Shown in pieces: positions 12,656 through 64,000 of a stretch of 64,000 nt of DNA; the stretch's first letter is position 1; every line of letters starts with the position of its first letter. Both the position numbers and the translations under genes were made by a program. The notes beneath the pieces were generated by a model. That model worked only from the letters and a program-made list of their open reading frames with translations. It ran no database searches and had not been told where the DNA came from. Source of the DNA: Bacteroidota bacterium (lineage in GTDB: Bacteria; Bacteroidota; Bacteroidia; Bacteroidales; WCHB1-69); NCBI GenBank assembly GCA_029570835.1, contig JAKPTX010000205.1, positions 1 through 64,000 on the forward strand. The letters run 5' to 3'.

Positions 12656-14203
12656 ATGGCAAACGAAAACTTTATGGTTAAAAAGACCTCTGCTACTCCT
12701 GCATTGAACACCCTGGAATCAGTGATGGGATTCACCGGGAAGTTAACTCCTCAAGCTATCGATTTTGAGATGGCTGTTTTGGGAGCAATCATGATTCAAG
12801 CGGACGCAGTAGGAGAAGTGATTGATTTGTTAACCCCTGAAATGTTTTATCAGGAATCACACCAGTTAATATTCAGAGCATTCCGGGAACTATTTAAAGA
12901 TTCTAAACCGATCGACTTACTCACAACGACCAATCATCTTAGACAAAATAAACAGCTTGATGCCATTGGAGGACCTGCCTATTTAGCATCATTAACGCAG
13001 CGTATAGCTTCATCTGCTAACATTGAGTATCACGCCAGAATCGTGATGGAGAAATATGTTTTACGTTCTCTGATTACAACATGTAATGAAATTATCAAAG
13101 ATGCGTACGACGATTCTACCGATGTACTTTCCCTTTTAGATCGGGCAGAAACCGACCTTTTCGGAATTATAGAACAAAACTTCAAACGCGAGAGCAAAGA
13201 ACTTCCTGAAGTTGTAAGTAAAGCAATTGAAGAGTTAATAGAGATGAGAAACAGCGATGTGGCAGTCCATGGAGTTCCAACCGGAATTCGTGCCATTGAC
13301 GAAAAAATCGGAGGTTGGCAAAAATCGGATTTAATTATTATCGCAGCTCGTCCGGGGATGGGTAAAACCTCATTTGTGCTTTCAATAGCCCGCAATGCAG
13401 CCGTAGATTTTAAGAAAAATGTAGCTTTCTTCTCTTTGGAGATGTCAGCAACTCAAATTGTACACCGACTCTTCTCCATAGAAAGCGGTATCGATTCTGA
13501 AAAAATCTCCAAGGGAAGATTGGATGACGTGGAGTGGACCCAACTCACCAACAAGATTGGACACCTCAGCAATGCCAACTTAGTTATTGACGACACTCCC
13601 GCCCTTTCCGTTTTTGACTTAAGAGCCAAGTGCCGAAGATTGAAACAGCAAAAAAATATTGAACTGATTATTGTCGATTACCTTCAATTAATGCAGGCAA
13701 CCGGAGATAATGAGAAAAATAAGGGAAATCGTGAGCAGGAGATCAGTTTTATCTCCAGATCTCTCAAAGCTTTAGCAAAAGAGCTCAATGTACCTGTGAT
13801 TGCTCTTTCTCAAATGTCCAGAGCCGTTGAAACAAGAAGTAGTTCCACGAAAAGACCACAACTTTCCGACCTTCGTGAATCGGGATCCATCGAGCAAGAT
13901 GCCGATATGGTACTTTTTATTTACAGACCCGAATATTATAGGTTTGAACTCTTCGAAGATCAGACTCCATCTCAAGGAAAGGCTGATATTATGTTTGAAA
14001 AAAACAGACACGGTTCCACAGGAAATATTAGAGTCCGTTTTGAAAGCAAATACACTAAATTCTCCGATATAGACTATAGTGATATGAAGAGCGATGACAA
14101 CATCACTCCAAACACCGGCTTTGACACTTTTGAATCTAAAATGAACCACTACAGTAATGAGCCATCCTCTGATGAGGATGCTGGAGACGGACTTCCTTAT
14201 TAG
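12656..14203 (+). CDS. dnaB: Replicative DNA helicase DnaB
   Basis: Hexameric 5'-3' helicase that unwinds DNA at the replication fork. The N-terminal primase-interaction domain begins at TPQAIDFEMAVLGAIM (about residues 32-47). The RecA-like C-terminal domain carries Walker A ARPGMGKTS (about 227-235), the Walker B region LIIVDYLQLM and the sensor/arginine-finger region DLRESGSIEQDADMVLF. At 515 aa without an intein it is of normal length. It converges on hutI with only 16 nt between the stops and no obvious terminator hairpin. Confidence 0.97.
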   Translation: MANENFMVKKTSATPALNTLESVMGFTGKLTPQAIDFEMAVLGAIMIQADAVGEVIDLLTPEMFYQESHQLIFRAFRELFKDSKPIDLLTTTNHLRQNKQLDAIGGPAYLASLTQRIASSANIEYHARIVMEKYVLRSLITTCNEIIKDAYDDSTDVLSLLDRAETDLFGIIEQNFKRESKELPEVVSKAIEELIEMRNSDVAVHGVPTGIRAIDEKIGGWQKSDLIIIAARPGMGKTSFVLSIARNAAVDFKKNVAFFSLEMSATQIVHRLFSIESGIDSEKISKGRLDDVEWTQLTNKIGHLSNANLVIDDTPALSVFDLRAKCRRLKQQKNIELIIVDYLQLMQATGDNEKNKGNREQEISFISRSLKALAKELNVPVIALSQMSRAVETRSSSTKRPQLSDLRESGSIEQDADMVLFIYRPEYYRFELFEDQTPSQGKADIMFEKNRHGSTGNIRVRFESKYTKFSDIDYSDMKSDDNITPNTGFDTFESKMNHYSNEPSSDEDAGDGLPY

Positions 14204-14219
14204 GAGATCCCATCTACAA

Positions 14220-15476
14220 TTATGCCAATCTTTTTCCTCTCAGAAAAGCTTGTTCAACCTTATTAGAACCAAAAGAATAGGGCATAAACTCAATATTGGG
14301 TATCGGTTTTGTAATATAAAAATTGGCTATTTTCCCTTTTGCAATGGAGCCTGCAACATCTTGAACATCCATAGCATAAGCTGTGTTGAGTGTGGTTGCA
14401 TTGATTGCCTCTTCCGGAATCATTTTATACTTTATGGAACCCATGGAGAGTACCAATTGCATATTTCCGGATGGTGAGGAACCCGGATTGTAATCGGAAG
14501 CCAGTGCAATAGGTAATCCTGCGTCAATCATTTTACGTACCGGACCGTAAACCATTCCGAGAAAGAAAGCAGCTCCCGGTAAAAAAGTCGGCATCGTTTC
14601 AGAATTTAACAACACTTCAATCTCTTCATCCCCTGTGTACTCAAGATGATCAACAGAAAGTGCATTATATTTTACTCCAACTTGAATTCCTCCGGAATAA
14701 TCCAACTCATTAGCGTGAATTTTAGGTCTCATACCATACTTGATTCCTTGCATTAATATCCTTTCTGTCTCCTCAGGTGTGAAGAAGCCCTTATCACAAA
14801 AAACATCGATAAAATCAGCCAATCCTTCTGCTGCCACCATCGGAATCATCTCATTGATAATCATATCTACATATTCTGTTTGTCTGCCTTTATATTCCAA
14901 AGGAACCGCATGAGCTCCCAAAAAGTTCGATTTAATAATAAAGGGGGTTTCCTCTTGCAATCTGCGAATCACACGCAACATCTTCAACTCCGTTTCAGTA
15001 GTCAGACCATAACCACTTTTAATCTCAACAGCACCTGTACCGAAAGAACCCATTTCCATCAATCTGTCGTAGGCAGTATCGAAGAGTTCTTGCTCGGTAG
15101 CCTCAGCTAATAAACGGGCAGTATTGTTAATCCCTCCCCCTCTTTTTGCTATCTCCTCATAAGATAACCCCTTAATCTTATCTATATATTCAATCTCTCT
15201 GCTTCCAGCATACACAATATGAGTATGCGAGTCGCAAAATGATGGAAAAACCATCTTTCCGGTGGCATCTATAATCTCGACCTGCTCCTGAACCTGATTC
15301 AGAGTCGCTTTAGTCAATTGCTTCATAGGGCCAAAATCAACGATTTTCTCCCCTCCAGTCAATAAAAAAGCATCATCAATAGTTTCCAAATGAGCCATCT
15401 CTTTACCTGCCCGATAAGCTACAGGTTCATACTCCACCTGAACTAATTTCTTAATGTTTTTAATCAATAAAGCCAT
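14220..15476 (-). CDS. hutI: Imidazolonepropionase
   Basis: Third step of histidine degradation: hydrolysis of 4-imidazolone-5-propionate to N-formimino-L-glutamate. The amidohydrolase metal motif SHTHIVYAG is at about 72-80. Further ligand regions are IHANELDYSGG and VDHLEYTGDEE, and the C-terminal ASDYNPGSSPS is typical of HutI. At 418 aa it is full-length. No hutH, hutU or formiminotransferase gene lies next to it; the ammonia-lyase at 56.6 kb belongs to a different pathway. It is divergent from the TPR gene, and the two promoters share a ~90-nt region. Confidence 0.95.
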   Translation of the reverse strand: MALLIKNIKKLVQVEYEPVAYRAGKEMAHLETIDDAFLLTGGEKIVDFGPMKQLTKATLNQVQEQVEIIDATGKMVFPSFCDSHTHIVYAGSREIEYIDKIKGLSYEEIAKRGGGINNTARLLAEATEQELFDTAYDRLMEMGSFGTGAVEIKSGYGLTTETELKMLRVIRRLQEETPFIIKSNFLGAHAVPLEYKGRQTEYVDMIINEMIPMVAAEGLADFIDVFCDKGFFTPEETERILMQGIKYGMRPKIHANELDYSGGIQVGVKYNALSVDHLEYTGDEEIEVLLNSETMPTFLPGAAFFLGMVYGPVRKMIDAGLPIALASDYNPGSSPSGNMQLVLSMGSIKYKMIPEEAINATTLNTAYAMDVQDVAGSIAKGKIANFYITKPIPNIEFMPYSFGSNKVEQAFLRGKRLA

Positions 15477-56619: not shown

Positions 56620-58146
56620 ATGACTTTAACCAATCATTATCACAATTTTGATGAACTAGTCAAACTCATTTGGGGAGAACCTATTGAAATAGATAGCGAG
56701 GCTCTCCAAGATGTAGAGCAATCCTTTCTTTTTTTACAAAAATTTTCAAAAGATAGATTAGTTTATGGAGTTAACACCGGTTTTGGCCCAATGGCACAAT
56801 ATCGGATTCATGATGAAGATATCACACAACTCCAGTACAATCTCGTACGCAGTCATGCAACAGGAACAGGTAAAGAACTCACTCCTTTACAAATTCGCGC
56901 TGCTTTAATCTGCCGCTTAATCTCCCTTTTAAGAGGTTATTCAGGTGTACACCCTTCAACCATTTCTCAACTGCAACTTTTCATTAACCATGAAATCTAC
57001 CCGGTTATTTACCACCATGGAAGTGTGGGAGCAAGTGGAGATTTAGTTCAGTTAGCTCATTTAGCTTTGGCTTTAATTGGAGAAGGTGAAGTTTTTTATA
57101 AGGGGGGGAAGGCAACAACTCACTCTGTACTGAAACTTTTGAAAATAGATCCTCTTCAACTTTATATTCGTGATGGGCTCTCTCTGATCAATGGTACCTC
57201 GGTGATGAGTGGGATTGCGTTGATCAATTTGGTTCAGGCAAAAAAACTATTCCACCTGGCTGTTATGACATCTGCGATGGTGAATGAAGTAGTTTCATCC
57301 TGTAATGACCACTACTCTATCCAATTGAATAGCAAAAAACATCACTACGGACAACGTAAAGTAGCCGGTATGATGGGTGCAATTCTTGCAGACAGTCAGT
57401 TAATTAGAGAGAGATATGATAAAGATCATGACCACCTTCCTACTGAAGAGGTTTTATCAAGAAAAGTACAAGAATACTATTCACTTCGCTCCGCTCCTCA
57501 AGTATTGGGTCCTGTTTTAGATACAATTAACCAGGCTGAAAAGGTTATTTTGGACGAAATCAACTCCTCTAATGACAACCCTGTTGTCGATTACCGTGAT
57601 CAAACAATATATCATGGAAGTAATTTCCATGGAGATTATATCTCCCTTGAGATGGATAAGTTGAAAATTGCGATTATCCGTCTCACCATGTTAGCGGAAA
57701 GACAACTCAACTTCCTCATGAACGATAAACTAAACCAGCAGTTCCCCCCATTTTTAAACCATGGCAAATTGGGACTCAACTTAGGTATGCAAGCTATGCA
57801 ATTTACCGCTACATCAACTACTGCTGAAAGTCAAACATTAGGATTTCCGAACTATGTTCACTCTATCCCCAACAACAATGACAATCAGGACATTGTCAGC
57901 ATGGGTACCAACAGTGCTCTCATTGCTGCTCAGGTAATTGAAAATGGATTTGAGGTAATGGCTATCTATCTGATTGCCATTGCTCAGGCATACGAATTCA
58001 TAGAAGATCACTCAAAAATAGGATCTCAAACCAAGGAAAAATACGAAAAGATTCGCTCTATCGTCCCCAAATTCATTGAGGACACTCCCAAATATGAGGA
58101 AATTCTTAAAGTGAAAGAGTGGATTATGAATATGAACAACAAATAA
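56620..58146 (+). CDS. Aromatic amino acid (tyrosine) ammonia-lyase, pigment-type
   Basis: MIO-dependent ammonia-lyase of 508 aa. The self-cyclising ASG triad is at 138-140 (GSVGASGDLVQLAHL) and the catalytic Tyr is in VYGVNTGFG (49). The substrate-selectivity stretch LQYNLVRSHATGTGK (71-85) is very close to what I recall of the Flavobacterium johnsoniae tyrosine ammonia-lyase, as are VNTGFGPMAQYRI and VHSIPNNNDNQDIVSMGTN. By homology to that enzyme it should give 4-coumarate from tyrosine, the aryl starter of flexirubin-type pigments. Histidase is the alternative, but the operon contains ACP, ketosynthase and ketoreductase genes and no hut genes. First gene of the operon. Confidence 0.85.
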   Translation: MTLTNHYHNFDELVKLIWGEPIEIDSEALQDVEQSFLFLQKFSKDRLVYGVNTGFGPMAQYRIHDEDITQLQYNLVRSHATGTGKELTPLQIRAALICRLISLLRGYSGVHPSTISQLQLFINHEIYPVIYHHGSVGASGDLVQLAHLALALIGEGEVFYKGGKATTHSVLKLLKIDPLQLYIRDGLSLINGTSVMSGIALINLVQAKKLFHLAVMTSAMVNEVVSSCNDHYSIQLNSKKHHYGQRKVAGMMGAILADSQLIRERYDKDHDHLPTEEVLSRKVQEYYSLRSAPQVLGPVLDTINQAEKVILDEINSSNDNPVVDYRDQTIYHGSNFHGDYISLEMDKLKIAIIRLTMLAERQLNFLMNDKLNQQFPPFLNHGKLGLNLGMQAMQFTATSTTAESQTLGFPNYVHSIPNNNDNQDIVSMGTNSALIAAQVIENGFEVMAIYLIAIAQAYEFIEDHSKIGSQTKEKYEKIRSIVPKFIEDTPKYEEILKVKEWIMNMNNK

Positions 58147-58155
58147 GAACTCAAT

Positions 58156-58884
58156 ATGAAATATGGATTAGTAACCGGTGGATCTAGGGGAATAGGTAGA
58201 GCCATAGCTTTATCTATCAGTAGAATGGGATATCGGGTCATTATCAATTATCACTCTAACACAGAGGCGGCAGAAGAGACACTTAGACTCATTAGAGCTG
58301 AAGGAGGAGATGGTGAATTGCTCCCTTTTGATGTTTCCAATGAAGAAGATGTTGACCAGGCGCTCCTGCAATGGGAGAAGGATCACCCCGATGATCAAAT
58401 TGAAGTTTTAGTTAACAATGCCGGAATTCGTAAAGATAATTTGATGATTTTTATGCAAAATGAAGACTGGCATTCCATCATCAATACACACCTCAACGGA
58501 TTTTTCTACACTACTCGCCGCCTGCTTAAAGGCATGTTGACCAAGCGTTACGGCAGAATTATCAATGTGGTTTCACTATCAGGAATCAAAGGATTACCGG
58601 GGCAAACAAACTACAGTGCTGCAAAAGCGGGTATCATTGGTGCTTCTAAAGCTTTGGCACAAGAGGTTGCACCAAGAAAAATAACTGTCAATTGTGTTGC
58701 TCCCGGATTCATTCATACTGACATGACTGCCGAATTACCTGAATCAGAACTCAAAACCTTAATCCCTATGGGACGTTTTGGAAATCCAGAAGAAGTTGCT
58801 GCTGTAGTAGCTTTTCTAGCTTCTAAAAACGCATCTTATATCACCGGAGAAGTTATCTCTGTAAATGGAGGTTTATACACTTAA
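58156..58884 (+). CDS. 3-oxoacyl-ACP reductase, FabG-type SDR
   Basis: Short-chain dehydrogenase of 242 aa reducing beta-ketoacyl-ACP with NADPH. The cofactor motif TGGSRGIG is at about 7-14, NNAG at about 88, the catalytic Ser in VSLSGIKG, and YSAAKAG carries the Tyr and Lys. Being within an ammonia-lyase/ketosynthase operon (9 nt after the lyase), it most likely serves this dedicated chain rather than housekeeping fatty acid synthesis. Confidence 0.9.
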   Translation: MKYGLVTGGSRGIGRAIALSISRMGYRVIINYHSNTEAAEETLRLIRAEGGDGELLPFDVSNEEDVDQALLQWEKDHPDDQIEVLVNNAGIRKDNLMIFMQNEDWHSIINTHLNGFFYTTRRLLKGMLTKRYGRIINVVSLSGIKGLPGQTNYSAAKAGIIGASKALAQEVAPRKITVNCVAPGFIHTDMTAELPESELKTLIPMGRFGNPEEVAAVVAFLASKNASYITGEVISVNGGLYT

Positions 58885-58896
58885 TCTAAAAAGAGC

Positions 58897-60114
58897 ATGA
58901 AAAGAGTTGTAATCACAGGAATGGGAATTTACTCCAGCATTGGAAAAAATAAAGAGGAAGTATTACTCTCCCTTCAAAATGGGAAATCCGGAATTGGGAT
59001 TGAACCTTTCAGAACCGAAATGGGGTTTCGCTCCCCACTGACAGGAATTTTAGAAGTACCTAATCTCAAAGGGAAATTAGACAGAAGATTACGTACCGGA
59101 CTCGCTGAAGAAGGAATCTTTGCTTATATTGCTTCTTTGGAAGCACTGGAACAAGCCTTGATTGATGATGATTATCTTGAAAATAACGAGATCGGAATTC
59201 TGTATGGGAATGACAGTTCAGCCAAGGCTGTAATTGAAGCACACGAACTTATAAAACTTAGAAAAGACACTACGCTGTTGGGTTCCGGTGCCATATTCCA
59301 ATCTATGAATTCAACAGTAACTATGAATCTTTCCACTATTTTTAAGCTTAAAGGGATTAACTTCACCATCAGTGCTGCCTGTGCCAGTGGTTCTCACGCA
59401 TTAGGTATGGGATACCACTTTATCAGACACGGCATGCAAGATATGGTTTTGTGTGGTGGAGCGCAGGAGATCAATGCGTACTCAATGGGAAGTTTTGACG
59501 CACTCAGTGCTTTCTCCGTACGGATTGACGAACCCACTAAAGCATCCCGCCCATTTGATAAAAACAGAGATGGACTAGTTCCCAGTGGTGGTGCGGCTAC
59601 ACTTATTTTGGAAGAGTATGAACATGCAGTCAAACGAGGAGCACCCATTTTAGCAGAAATAATTGGATATGGATTCTCCTCCAATGGATCACATATCTCA
59701 CAACCCACAAACGAAGGATCGTACCGCGCAATGTCGATGGCACTTAGAGATGCACAACTCACTCCAAAGCAAATCGATTATATTAATGCACATGCCACCT
59801 CCACTCCAATGGGAGATGGTTTTGAAGCGTTGGCTATCAATAAACTGTTTGGGAATCAAACACCGGTCAGCTCAACCAAAAGTATGACGGGACATGAGTG
59901 CTGGATGGCAGGAGCCAGTGAAGTTATATACTCAATTTTAATGATGCATCACGACTTTATGGCTCCCAATATCAACTTTGAAGAACCGGATGAACAGAGT
60001 GCCGGAATCAATGTCATAAATAAAACAACTGAAAAGAAATTAAATTATATTCTCTCTAACTCTTTTGGATTTGGAGGAACCAATAGTGCTTTAATTATAA
60101 AAAAACATCAATAA
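58897..60114 (+). CDS. Beta-ketoacyl-ACP synthase (FabF-like, dedicated)
   Basis: Condensing enzyme of 405 aa with a complete Cys-His-His set: Cys162 in ACASGSH, His299 in NAHATSTPMGD and His333 in KSMTGHECWMAGASE. The final NSFGFGGTNSALII loop is intact. It would extend the acyl chain with malonyl-ACP. Its C-H-H set marks it as the catalytic KS; the partial ketosynthase at the right edge could be its partner. Twelve nt after the ketoreductase gene. Confidence 0.92.
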   Translation: MKRVVITGMGIYSSIGKNKEEVLLSLQNGKSGIGIEPFRTEMGFRSPLTGILEVPNLKGKLDRRLRTGLAEEGIFAYIASLEALEQALIDDDYLENNEIGILYGNDSSAKAVIEAHELIKLRKDTTLLGSGAIFQSMNSTVTMNLSTIFKLKGINFTISAACASGSHALGMGYHFIRHGMQDMVLCGGAQEINAYSMGSFDALSAFSVRIDEPTKASRPFDKNRDGLVPSGGAATLILEEYEHAVKRGAPILAEIIGYGFSSNGSHISQPTNEGSYRAMSMALRDAQLTPKQIDYINAHATSTPMGDGFEALAINKLFGNQTPVSSTKSMTGHECWMAGASEVIYSILMMHHDFMAPNINFEEPDEQSAGINVINKTTEKKLNYILSNSFGFGGTNSALIIKKHQ

Positions 60115-60131
60115 ACACTAAAACTATAAAG

Positions 60132-60377
60132 ATGGAAAGAGGTAAAATTATTGAAACAATTAATCTTTTTTTAATTGAAGAGATCGAAATTGAAGAAGAT
60201 CTATTAAATGAAGAGGCGTTACTTAAGGAAGATCTAGGAATTGACAGTTTAGATTTTGTAGATGTCGTTGTAATAGTAGAACGTGAGTTTGGCTTCAAAA
60301 TAAAACCGGAAGAGATGACCGATGTAAAAACATTAGGTGCTTTTTATGACTATATAGAAAAAAAAGTTAACTCATAA
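60132..60377 (+). CDS. Acyl carrier protein, dedicated
   Basis: 81-aa acidic ACP. The phosphopantetheine Ser39 lies in LGIDSLDFVDVV, preceded by the usual helix I. It differs from a housekeeping AcpP (no DSL-D-TVE), having DSLDFVD as in type II polyketide/aryl-polyene ACPs. Seventeen nt after the ketosynthase gene. Confidence 0.92.
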   Translation: MERGKIIETINLFLIEEIEIEEDLLNEEALLKEDLGIDSLDFVDVVVIVEREFGFKIKPEEMTDVKTLGAFYDYIEKKVNS

Positions 60378-60384
60378 CGTGCCC

Positions 60385-61314
60385 ATGAAGAGAGCTTGGA
60401 GTGGAAAAACTCAAGGAGGTAAGTGGGGACAACAATTTGTACTTTATTACTTCAAATATGGGAGCCTGAGATTACTCTACCTTGTACTTTACTTTGTGAT
60501 CCCTTTTTATCTTATTTTTGATCGCAAAGGATATCGTGCTATGCGTTGGTATGCGCAAAAAGTAGGTAATAAAAATCGAAAATGGCATCTCCCTTTCGTT
60601 TTCCGCATTTATAAAAGCTTTGGACAGCTTTTTTTAGATCGTTTTTCAATGCTGGGCAATCCCAAGAGAAGATTTCACTTTGAGATTATTAACCAAACTC
60701 TCTTTGATCAATTTTATTATGGAGAGAAAGGGTTTTTATTAGTTAGTGCCCATGTCGGCAATTTCGAACTTTTTGGTTACACCATTAAAGAAAATCTAAA
60801 AATTATTCACCCTATCCTTTTTGGAGGTGAAGCAGAAGTATACCAACGAATGCGCAAATCTATTTTTACTGAACATCAAATCAAACCGATTATTCTTAAT
60901 CCAACCGGTGATTATATCTTTGAGATTCACAATGCGCTACAATCAGGAAATATAGTAAGCATGCCCGCTGACAGGACCTACAATGAAATCAAAGATTTTA
61001 CTACTCCATTTTTTGGATACGATGCCAAATTTCCTATAGGAGTATATCAGATTGCTGCCACTTTGGAAATACCTGTGCTCTCAATTTTTGTAATTAAAAC
61101 CGGATACAAAAAATTCCGCGTTTACATAGACCAGGTAAGTGACAATCAGTTTTCCGGTAGAAAAAAAGAACAAGCAGTTCAAATGGGAAAAAAATATGTT
61201 GCACAATTGGAAAAAGTTTTAAAACAACATCCATCACAATGGTACAATTTTTTCCCATTTTGGGATCAACAAATAAAAGATCTAAATATCAATAAAAAGA
61301 AGTATGGAGAGTAA
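60385..61314 (+). CDS. LpxL/LPLAT-type lipid acyltransferase
   Basis: Membrane-associated acyltransferase of about 309 aa. An N-terminal hydrophobic anchor (LYLVLYFVIPFYLIF, about 30-48) is followed by the catalytic H-x4-E motif AHVGNFE (about 120). The PADRTYNE and PIGVYQIA segments form the LPLAT binding pocket. Members (LpxL/HtrB superfamily) transfer acyl chains from ACP to lipids. In flexirubin and aryl-polyene clusters such an enzyme is thought to move the finished chain to a lipid. An in-frame GTG at 60379 is an alternative start. The 3' end overlaps the radical SAM gene by 11 nt. Confidence 0.87.
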   Translation: MKRAWSGKTQGGKWGQQFVLYYFKYGSLRLLYLVLYFVIPFYLIFDRKGYRAMRWYAQKVGNKNRKWHLPFVFRIYKSFGQLFLDRFSMLGNPKRRFHFEIINQTLFDQFYYGEKGFLLVSAHVGNFELFGYTIKENLKIIHPILFGGEAEVYQRMRKSIFTEHQIKPIILNPTGDYIFEIHNALQSGNIVSMPADRTYNEIKDFTTPFFGYDAKFPIGVYQIAATLEIPVLSIFVIKTGYKKFRVYIDQVSDNQFSGRKKEQAVQMGKKYVAQLEKVLKQHPSQWYNFFPFWDQQIKDLNINKKKYGE

Positions 61315-62653
61315 TAAAATCTTATTGATATCGGCCAATACATACGGAATACCATACAAGGTGTATCCCATAGGTGCTTCCTATATCAAAACCTACATCC
61401 ATGACCATTTTCCTGATTGGCAGGTAGATCTATTCGATTTCAACTTCAACACCTACGATTCACTCCGTCAACAACTGCTAAAAAAACAATACGATCTTAT
61501 TGCACTCTCTCTTCGCAATAGCGATGATGTGAATTATTACGCTCAAGAGAGTTTTATGAGACATTATCATACTATTTGCCAAACAATCAGAGAAAACAGC
61601 TCCACTCCCATTGTAGCCGGTGGACCAGCCGTTTCAATTTTTCCACAAGAAATATCCGACTACTTGGGAGTTGATTATATTGTTGTTGGAGAGGGAGAAA
61701 AAGTGCTTTGTGACCTCAGTATAGCCCTTAAAAATAAAAAAGAGATTGATACTGTTACAGGAATTTGGAAAAATAAGAACTCTTATAAAAAAACCGAATA
61801 TGTTTCGCATCTGAATGTACAATTTGAACCTGAACTAGCTCGTTTCTACCTTGATGAGGGAGGAATGTTAAATATCCAAACCAAACGAGGATGTCCATTT
61901 CACTGTGTCTACTGTACCTATCCACTCATTGAAGGAAAAACCGTACGCACTTTGGACTCCAAATTGATTGTAGAAAATATTAAAGAACTGTCACAAATAG
62001 AGAAAAACATTTATCTCTTTTTTACTGATTCAGTCTTCAATATACATGAAGATTACAACGAAGAGTTAGCCCATCGGATTATTGAAAGTGGAGTCAAAAT
62101 CAGGTGGGGAGCCTATTTTATTCCCAAAAATCTCAATAAAAAACGTTTAGAGCTCTATCAAAAATCAGGTTTAACCCATATTGAATTTGGGACAGACTCC
62201 TTTTCTGATCAACAGTTAATCAACTATCGTAAGGAGTTCAAGTTCAGTGATGTTATAGAATCCACTGAGATTTGCAATCAAGTGGGAATTTTCCATAGCC
62301 ATTTTCTTATCTTAGGAGGGATAGGTGAAACAGAGGAGAGTTTACTTGAAACCATCCAAAATAGCGACCAACTAGAAAACACAATTATTTTTCCCTTTAT
62401 TGGAATGAGAATCTACCCCAACACTGAACTACATCACTTAGCCCTCCAGGAAGGGAAAATTAATAACGGAAACCTCCTAGAACCTCAATACTATCTTTCC
62501 GACTCAATCCCAGTAAATCAACTAAAAGATTTAACCGCCCGTACAAAAAACAGATGGATTTTCCCGGATGAACCTCATGAAGAGATGATTGCTCGATTAA
62601 GAAGAAAAAAAAGAAGAGGACCACTTTGGGAATATCTCAAATATCAATTATAA
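61304..62653 (+). CDS. B12-binding domain radical SAM protein
   Basis: 449 aa. The N-terminal ~140 aa form a cobalamin-binding Rossmann domain: LLISANTYGIPYKVYPIGASYIKTYI, IVAGGPAVSIFPQEI and YIVVGEGE, without a DxHxxG His ligand, as in most cobalamin radical SAM enzymes. The radical SAM core follows with the [4Fe-4S] motif C197-x3-C201-x2-C204 (KRGCPFHCVYC). Such enzymes methylate or rearrange unactivated carbons. It overlaps the acyltransferase gene and is 13 nt from the next start, so it belongs to the operon. Related proteins occur, as I recall, in ladderane-associated fatty acid clusters; its role here is unknown. Confidence 0.88.
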   Translation: MESNKILLISANTYGIPYKVYPIGASYIKTYIHDHFPDWQVDLFDFNFNTYDSLRQQLLKKQYDLIALSLRNSDDVNYYAQESFMRHYHTICQTIRENSSTPIVAGGPAVSIFPQEISDYLGVDYIVVGEGEKVLCDLSIALKNKKEIDTVTGIWKNKNSYKKTEYVSHLNVQFEPELARFYLDEGGMLNIQTKRGCPFHCVYCTYPLIEGKTVRTLDSKLIVENIKELSQIEKNIYLFFTDSVFNIHEDYNEELAHRIIESGVKIRWGAYFIPKNLNKKRLELYQKSGLTHIEFGTDSFSDQQLINYRKEFKFSDVIESTEICNQVGIFHSHFLILGGIGETEESLLETIQNSDQLENTIIFPFIGMRIYPNTELHHLALQEGKINNGNLLEPQYYLSDSIPVNQLKDLTARTKNRWIFPDEPHEEMIARLRRKKRRGPLWEYLKYQL

Positions 62654-62666
62654 ACTTTATTTGAAT

Positions 62667-63113
62667 ATGACAAAACTTAATTTTGATATTACCCGCTTAA
62701 ATGTTCAAGATCTTCTTCCACAAAGAGTTCCTTTTATCTTTGTAGATAGCGTCCTGGCATTAGATCCGGATCAAAAAAACTGTGTTACTCAATTTTTAAT
62801 CAAAAAGGACACATTACTGATGGATCAGGGTTATCTTTCAGAGGGTGGTTTAGTGGAAAACATTGCTCAAACTTGTGCTCTTTACTTAGGAATTTACAAT
62901 AAATACATACTTCATAAGGAAATTCAAATTGGATTCATAGGTGCTATCAAAAAATTTGCTATTTTTGAACTGCCAAAACAAGGTGATCTTTTATCTACCA
63001 ATATTCAGATCACAACGGAATTTGGAGACATGAAAATTGTCAACGGAACGATCAAATGTGCAGGTCGGGATATTGCACATGGAGAATTTAAAATTGCAAT
63101 AGGAAATGAGTAA
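62667..63113 (+). CDS. Hotdog-fold dehydratase-like protein (FabZ/ApeP-like)
   Basis: 148 aa from the ATG at 62667; a TTG two codons upstream is less likely. The FabZ/ApeP-like start LLPQRVPFIFVDSVLALD and the central helix GGLVENIAQTCALYLG with the conserved Glu are present. The usual catalytic His of FabZ (in GHFP) is absent, and the His of the PH-x-x-P motif is replaced by Gln (LPQRVPF). It may therefore be an inactive or partner subunit of a heteromeric dehydratase. Its last 8 bases overlap the thioesterase start. Confidence 0.75.
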   Translation: MTKLNFDITRLNVQDLLPQRVPFIFVDSVLALDPDQKNCVTQFLIKKDTLLMDQGYLSEGGLVENIAQTCALYLGIYNKYILHKEIQIGFIGAIKKFAIFELPKQGDLLSTNIQITTEFGDMKIVNGTIKCAGRDIAHGEFKIAIGNE

Positions 63114-63531
63114 AAAGAAAAAATTAACTGCTGAGACAACGCTAAAAATTAGATTTAGCGAAGTAGATTCAATGGGTGTAGTATGGCATGGAAGCTACGT
63201 TAAATATCTTGAAGATGCCCGTGAAGCATTTGGTGCCCAACATGGATTAAGTTATCTTTTTGTATTTGACAATGGATTTTTTACACCACTGGTGTCATTG
63301 GATATTCTATACAAAGCACCTCTAGTATACGGTGATGAAGTTACTGTCAAAGCTACTTTTATTGAAACAGAAGCTGCAAAAATCATTTTTGAATATGACG
63401 TGATTAATAATAAAACCGGTCAGTTATGTGCAACAGCCAAATCTGTACAAACATTTTTAAATAAAGAGTATAGCTTGGAACTGTATGCACCCGAGTTTTA
63501 TCTTAAATGGAAAAAGGAACATCTAAAATAG
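63106..63531 (+). CDS. Acyl-CoA/ACP thioesterase, 4-hydroxybenzoyl-CoA type
   Basis: 141-aa hotdog thioesterase. The catalytic region RFSEVDSMGVVWHGSYVKYLEDARE (about 16-40) contains the Asp and the WHxxYxxYLE/DARE pattern of the YbgC/4HBT group. PLVSLDILYKAPLVYGDEV forms the second strand set. It may release or edit chains from the ACP; thioesterases of this type are regular members of aryl-polyene/flexirubin clusters. Start overlaps the preceding stop. Confidence 0.88.
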   Translation: MSKKKKLTAETTLKIRFSEVDSMGVVWHGSYVKYLEDAREAFGAQHGLSYLFVFDNGFFTPLVSLDILYKAPLVYGDEVTVKATFIETEAAKIIFEYDVINNKTGQLCATAKSVQTFLNKEYSLELYAPEFYLKWKKEHLK

Positions 63532-63538
63532 AGATCAA

Positions 63539-64000
63539 ATGAAATACAATCAGGGGGTAAATATTATTGCAGACTGCATTGTTAATAGCTTGGGATTCAA
63601 CACTCAAGAGATATTTGATCAGATGAGAGCAGGTAAATTGGGAATGCAGGAGGTGAAAGGGTTAACACAGAGTGAACCCACTGCTATGCTATCACAGATT
63701 GACAGAGTTAGATGGAACCAAATCTGGGATCAAACCAATACTTTACCTTTAAAGGAGCAGTTTACTTTTTTTGAACAACTGATGATATATGTCATCCAAA
63801 AAGTAGTTAAAACCGCCCAAATCGATCCTAAACAGAAGAATGTTTTGTTCCTATTTTCTACCACAAAAGGAAATATTGAACTATTGGATTCAAATTTACA
63901 GCACAATTTTGATGCTGAACGAGTTCATATCTGGGAAAGTGCGGAAATAGTTACACAATATTTTCAAAACAATAATCAACCTATCATCCTCTCAAATGCT
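63539..64000 (+). CDS. Ketosynthase-like protein, N-terminal part (runs off the window)
   Basis: 154 codons are visible, open to the right edge. Start MKYNQGVNIIADCIVNSLGF, with a central VLFLFSTTKGNIELL, the N-terminal half of a thiolase-fold beta-ketoacyl synthase. The last visible residues are PIILSNA, the position just before the active-site Cys in this family. Whether the next residue is Cys (a second KS) or another residue (a chain length factor) cannot be seen. Seven nt after the thioesterase gene. Confidence 0.75.
   Translation, partial: MKYNQGVNIIADCIVNSLGFNTQEIFDQMRAGKLGMQEVKGLTQSEPTAMLSQIDRVRWNQIWDQTNTLPLKEQFTFFEQLMIYVIQKVVKTAQIDPKQKNVLFLFSTTKGNIELLDSNLQHNFDAERVHIWESAEIVTQYFQNNNQPIILSNA

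Follow-up and report, generated by a model that had tools for sequence, protein, structure and literature searches.

Gene context of the radical SAM gene

The window, that is, the whole stretch of 64,000 nucleotides analysed here, ends inside an operon that starts with the gene for a tyrosine ammonia-lyase, FlxA, and extends past the window on a contig of 109 kb. FlxA, which makes the 4-coumarate starter, is encoded at positions 56620-58146 of the forward strand (NCBIfam NF053541, FlxA_rubin_TAL, 775 bits, cut-off 700) and is followed on the same strand by the FabG-like SDR ketoreductase FlxB (58156-58884; NF053542, 406 bits, cut-off 340), a β-ketoacyl-ACP synthase, KS1 (58897-60114; FabB/FabF-like, E = 3e-123 to NF005935, under the family cut-off), an acyl carrier protein, ACP1 (60132-60377; several ACP models, top 59 bits), and an LPLAT/HtrB-like acyltransferase with an ApeD-like role (60379-61314; Pfam Lip_A_acyltrans PF03279, 41 bits, cut-off 22.3). 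The gene under study, at 61304-62653 (+), overlaps the acyltransferase gene by 11 nt, as already noted in the original prediction, and precedes a FabZ/hotdog-like dehydratase, DH1 (62661-63113, +; TIGR01750 fabZ, 29 bits, under the cut-off, in a conserved position); the 13-nt spacing given earlier applies if DH1 starts at the ATG at 62667, and becomes 7 nt with the TTG at 62661. A 4HBT thioesterase with an ApeK-like role (63106-63531, +; Pfam 4HBT_2, 63.5 bits) and the start of a second ketosynthase, KS2 (63539-64000, +), complete the window, KS2 running on to contig position 64702 (NF006618, 200 bits for the full ORF, under the cut-off).

Downstream of KS2 the contig encodes a 184-aa conserved protein, a second ACP (ACP2), a third ketosynthase (KS3), a chain-length-factor-like protein and an SMR-type protein, and then LolA2 (NF053544, above the cut-off), a second dehydratase, a glycosyltransferase, an MMPL/acyltransferase fusion and a CrtI-like oxidoreductase. 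From FlxA up to and including the CrtI-like gene there are 19 genes, spaced by -20 to +28 nt, and the FlxY acyl ligase (NF053551, above the cut-off) lies slightly beyond. Judged by these gene assignments, the operon is an aryl polyene/flexirubin-type cluster: the contig shares FlxA, FlxB, KS, ACP, acyltransferase, DH, thioesterase, LolA2, MMPL and FlxY with the clusters of Chitinophaga and Flavobacterium and the E. coli APE cluster, and differs from them in that a radical SAM gene takes the place of ApeB. A dialkylresorcinol ester, i.e. a flexirubin sensu stricto, is not indicated, because a DarB-like ketosynthase query (derived from L145, its DarB identity being by resemblance) gave no match in the source genome, which is 95% complete.

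Two other genes of the contig deserve mention. The 184-aa operon protein (G000:C92:64695-65249, L033:8695-9249) matches no Pfam or NCBIfam model. Just after the CrtI-like gene and near FlxY, a further B12-binding/radical SAM gene is present (G000:C92:75038-76303, L034:38-1303), and homologues of it stand in divergent orientation beside FlxA clusters in several Bacteroidetes (L062, L072, L083, L097, L099, L100, L101 and L108).

Family, fold and cofactor pocket of the protein

The 61304-62653 ORF is uninterrupted and encodes a protein of 449 aa with the architecture of a cobalamin-dependent radical SAM enzyme of the class B type, i.e. an N-terminal B12-binding Rossmann domain (PF02310, 54 bits) and a radical SAM core (Radical_SAM PF04055, 66 bits). 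In agreement with the original prediction, the DxHxxG motif that would supply the histidine ligand of B12 is absent, and the CxxxCxxC motif of the [4Fe-4S] cluster (CPFHCVYC, starting at residue 197; 61892-61915, +) occurs once in the window, where none is expected. A MetH activation domain was not found in the source genome. The protein matches NCBIfam TIGR04072 over its full length and above the curated cut-off (407.7 bits versus 360, E = 5e-122, model positions 1-441 of 443); this family bears the full name 'lipid biosynthesis B12-binding/radical SAM protein' and the short name rSAM_ladder_B12, and the name specifies no reaction. The HMM search suggested earlier thus returned the family with the 'ladder' label, and membership of BchE (64 bits, cut-off 481), HpnR (66 bits, cut-off 650) and HpnJ (80 bits, cut-off 578) was rejected. 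The intact frame, the TIGR04072 score and the conserved embedding likewise rule out a chance or stray ORF, and the gene is real.

The NCBIfam runners-up were the models of BzaD and of the tryptophan methylase TsrM. BzaD (TIGR04385) is the second-best model with 155 bits, far under its own cut-off of 450, and belongs to a different pathway, that of the benzimidazole lower ligand. BzaD works on an aromatic ring, and BzaD and BzaE act at different ring positions.

An AlphaFold2 model of the 449-aa protein (pLDDT 91, pTM 0.89) gave TsrM as the top Foldseek match (TM 0.82, E about 1e-28), with OxsB, TokK and CysS also among the matches, and TsrM (6wte/6wtf) was the top PDB sequence match as well (E = 2e-40). 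The two proteins share about 20% identity; the arginine under the cobalt is kept, and TsrM methylates an aromatic sp2 carbon, the C2 of tryptophan. Through Arg69, TsrM holds its cobalt free of a lower ligand (PMC8992657, PMC13331322); by alignment to 6wte this residue corresponds to R71 in an SLRN motif (residues 69-72; 61508-61519, +). In 80 sequences compared, R71, N72 and D74 are invariant (80/80), as are all three cysteines of the cluster motif (80/80). Because the RNxD motif is common to most TIGR04072-like proteins tested, those of other contexts included, it marks the cofactor pocket rather than a substrate or ring methylation. In contrast, TsrM Glu273, the residue that ligates the unique iron and so keeps SAM off the cluster, is replaced by V244, and the aligned residue is V, I or L in 80 of 80 sequences, which should leave the cluster open to SAM. 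The TsrM mechanism copied unchanged was therefore rejected, and its exact non-radical course need not apply here.

Conservation of the gene and its alternation with ApeB

A scan of GTDB genomes yielded at least 519 confirmed relatives of the radical SAM gene, from which 80 named loci were taken; culturable Bacteroidota such as Flammeovirga aprica and Marinilabiliaceae JC040 are among the carriers. The order FlxA-KR-KS-ACP-acyltransferase-rSAM-DH is repeated across Bacteroidales and in Flammeovirga, and since the embedding is kept in tens of genomes it is not due to chance; membership of a lipid/polyketide assembly-line operon, and the synteny with KS and ACP genes in other genomes on which the original prediction had staked itself, are thereby borne out. 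In an independent, evenly drawn sample of 295 Bacteroidales genomes, TIGR04072 exceeded the cut-off in 29, and 23 of these 29 also carry FlxA, against about 6 expected (p = 3e-13). The link to FlxA does not depend on the operon: in 13 genomes the radical SAM gene stands away from the KS genes or the cluster, and FlxA is present elsewhere in all 13; on this ground the idea that such 'solo' genes signal another function was rejected. ApeB is absent from 12 of the 13, the remaining genome, G729, having both the radical SAM gene and ApeB.

The slot between the acyltransferase and DH1 is filled in two ways: many anaerobic bacteria of the gut type have the radical SAM gene there, and relatives of theirs a SAM methyltransferase. 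In an automatic count of loci with exactly these neighbours, the radical SAM gene occupied it in 49 and a SAM methyltransferase in 8. Clusters of FlxA-positive, radical SAM-negative genomes often contain a Methyltransf_2-type protein, in many cases between the same acyltransferase and dehydratase. Among 86 FlxA-bearing clusters, 41 had the radical SAM gene, 22 the methyltransferase and 23 neither, and never both. The 23 without either are mostly flexirubin-type clusters of other classes or incomplete contigs, or have the methyltransferase elsewhere in the genome. The 86 clusters were partly picked for holding the radical SAM gene, and the genome-wide test on the 295 genomes is the cleaner one: of its 59 FlxA-positive genomes, 22 have only the radical SAM gene, 32 only ApeB, one has both and four have neither (Fisher p = 3e-11). 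The genome with both is G705, and its radical SAM gene is the FlxA-linked one. On a quick tree of FlxA the radical SAM/ApeB state changes at least 12 times, and well-supported branches force 6 or more of these changes; this recurrence indicates repeated replacement rather than a single split between lineages.

The methyltransferase of this slot is 45% identical over 351 aa to ApeB of E. coli CFT073 (c1203). For ApeB itself, methylation of the aryl head group is the predicted activity, and deletion mutants make immature aryl polyene acids (PMC8253772). After the structural-genomics entry 3dp7, the nearest solved relative of the slot methyltransferase is SibL, a C-methylase of 3-hydroxykynurenine that acts on the ring beside the hydroxyl group and has Tyr134 as its catalytic residue (PMC4426599); this tyrosine aligns with one that is invariant in 15 of 15 slot methyltransferases. 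ApeB and the radical SAM protein thus share a pathway, an operon slot and a complementary distribution while being unrelated proteins, ApeB being of the Methyltransf_2 type and dependent on SAM only, without B12 or an Fe-S cluster, as read on the Bacteroidales orthologue.

Several irregular loci were recorded in the survey. The radical SAM gene is apparently split in an Odoribacter genome (L081, 9992-10957 and 10982-11350), and that of another MAG carries an in-frame TAA (G582:C391:10283-11617), each by mutation or sequencing error. Genes for BtrH_N/DUF4872 proteins (L063:12239-13240 and 13667-14692, L062:12254-13258), followed by an ABC transporter pair, are inserted in many aryl polyene clusters with the radical SAM gene, which suggests that these lineages use another acyl acceptor or another way of export.

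Proposed reaction and the wider TIGR04072 family

We propose that the protein encoded at 61304-62653 is probably a cobalamin-dependent radical-SAM-type C-methylase whose target is the aromatic head group, a 4-hydroxyphenyl ring, of the operon's aryl polyene lipid, and that it is a non-homologous replacement of ApeB. The operon and its conservation, the exchange within one slot, the complementary occurrence with ApeB and the TsrM-like fold are computed results; methylation as such, the ring as its site and the mechanism are inferred. Head-group methylation is favoured because the radical SAM gene shares its slot, and alternates, with an ApeB-type predicted head-group methylase that is close to ApeB itself and has the SibL-like invariant tyrosine; because the two enzymes are complementary among the 59 FlxA genomes and never met in the 86 clusters; because the state switches recur on the FlxA tree and the genomes with out-of-cluster radical SAM genes keep FlxA; and because BzaD and TsrM are the nearest other models, with TsrM the top fold match. 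In agreement with this proposal, the ring methyl of flexirubin is methionine-derived and replaces one ring hydrogen (PMC3992019). Some facts weigh against the head-group reading: where and when ApeB acts is itself inferred in published work, the RNxD motif (R71 included) occurs in other contexts too, TsrM Glu273 is replaced, G705 and G729 carry both enzymes, some TIGR04072 subclades lie in clusters without FlxA, and a costlier enzyme would have replaced ApeB although ApeB needs no oxygen.

In the proposed reaction, SAM would methylate cob(I)alamin and the methyl group would then pass to the carbon ortho to the phenol hydroxyl, presumably ring C3, by one of two routes. The phenolate carbon might attack methylcobalamin, or a phenoxyl radical, made with the help of the 5'-deoxyadenosyl radical, might take the methyl group; in either form, phenolate or phenoxyl radical, a phenol has an activated ortho carbon.

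Methylation of a carbon of the polyene chain, or of a carrier-bound acyl chain, instead of the ring would suit a gene embedded among KS, ACP and DH genes, and there are B12 radical SAM enzymes that methylate carrier- or pantetheine-linked substrates, the structures of CysS and TokK, both fold matches, holding pantetheinylated substrates. Nevertheless, such a role appears unlikely, since the radical SAM gene accompanies FlxA even outside the cluster and alternates with ApeB, for which head-group methylation is predicted and which has a catalytic tyrosine like that of SibL. Of the original suggestion that the growing or finished chain is methylated, methylation as the chemistry is supported, whereas the alternation with ApeB suggests the aromatic ring as its site.

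Very unlikely, in turn, is that the enzyme modifies the head group in some other way (at a second position, with another group, or on a substrate such as the free coumaroyl starter) and substitutes for ApeB only in part. Genomes G705 and G729, which have both genes, would fit a division of labour, for which BzaD and BzaE on one aromatic ring offer a precedent, but the absence of ApeB from 22 of the 23 FlxA-positive radical SAM genomes is explained most simply if both enzymes do the same job.

Ring closure or C-C bond formation on the polyene, by a ladderane-like or other cyclisation that would make the complementarity with ApeB an indirect one, is about as improbable: the family short name rSAM_ladder_B12, the existence of ring-forming cobalamin radical SAM enzymes (PMC13142503) and TIGR04072-like proteins of another phylum in tandem-radical-SAM clusters (some with phytoene-desaturase-like genes) akin to those of Kuenenia and Desulfotalea (PMC2649909) speak for it, but the clade of the window is separate from the ladderane-like members and tied to FlxA, and one would not expect a cyclase to take over the slot of ApeB.

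The enzyme belongs to a known pathway; what is new, as far as the literature searched shows, is the assignment, in which a B12 radical SAM protein stands in for the aryl polyene head-group methyltransferase. The search found no paper naming TIGR04072 and none in which the head groups of flexirubin or aryl polyenes are tied to a radical SAM enzyme. If the head-group assignment is right, a B12 radical SAM family present in hundreds of genome contigs, and so far named for its lipid context only, would gain a concrete and testable reaction, an ordinary methyltransferase would have been swapped recurrently for a costly B12 radical enzyme at the same step, and the structure of a pigment would be linked to vitamin B12. 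It would also caution against deriving ladderane chemistry from the word 'ladder' in the name of the family.

The phylum with the ladderane-like members is that of G730, the genome of locus L071, in which TIGR04072 exceeded the cut-off in 33 of 148 genomes, the top members scoring 568-623 bits against about 390-430 for Bacteroidota members. In a quick TIGR04072 tree with long outer branches, which covered Bacteroidota-type and G730-phylum sequences, all 78 Bacteroidota-type rows formed one group (99% SH-aLRT), apart from the G730-phylum members of both aryl-polyene-like and ladderane-like clusters. As the Bacteroidota proteins form a clade of their own, the head-group result applies to this clade, and the earlier idea of a lipid chemistry shared with ladderanes finds no backing in the tree, just as the alternation with ApeB speaks for methylation of the aromatic ring rather than for C-C bond or ring formation; the chain or ladderane chemistry first proposed is probably wrong. 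A broader claim, that the entire TIGR04072 family, ladderane-like members included, consists of methylases and not cyclases, and that the aryl polyene clade lets a phenoxyl radical act on methylcobalamin to methylate the phenol ring, by a mechanism unlike that of TsrM (with the arginine under the cobalt retained and the blocking glutamate lost), is doubtful; if it were true, TIGR04072 would leave the list of candidate ladderane-ring enzymes.

In the G730 phylum, the four members with 568-623 bits (L210-L213) belong to aryl-polyene-like clusters where one or two more B12 radical SAM genes adjoin them, and the stretch read at these loci showed no FlxA. At L215, L221, L222 and L227, a tandem pair of radical SAM genes (about 332 and 366-369 aa) accompanies KS genes and a TIGR04072 member, and some tandem-radical-SAM clusters of this phylum hold CrtI-like (phytoene-desaturase-like) genes; these clusters recall the ones reported from Kuenenia and Desulfotalea for ladderanes or polyunsaturated hydrocarbons (PMC2649909). 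Within Bacteroidales, a second TIGR04072-like paralogue scores 280-338 bits, under the cut-off (L180, L183 and L184, also L179, L181, L182 and L185-L188). In three genomes it adjoins a malonyl-transferase-like gene, an ACP and a GT2/MMPL/CRTI set, and other copies stand alone, three of them near cell-division genes.
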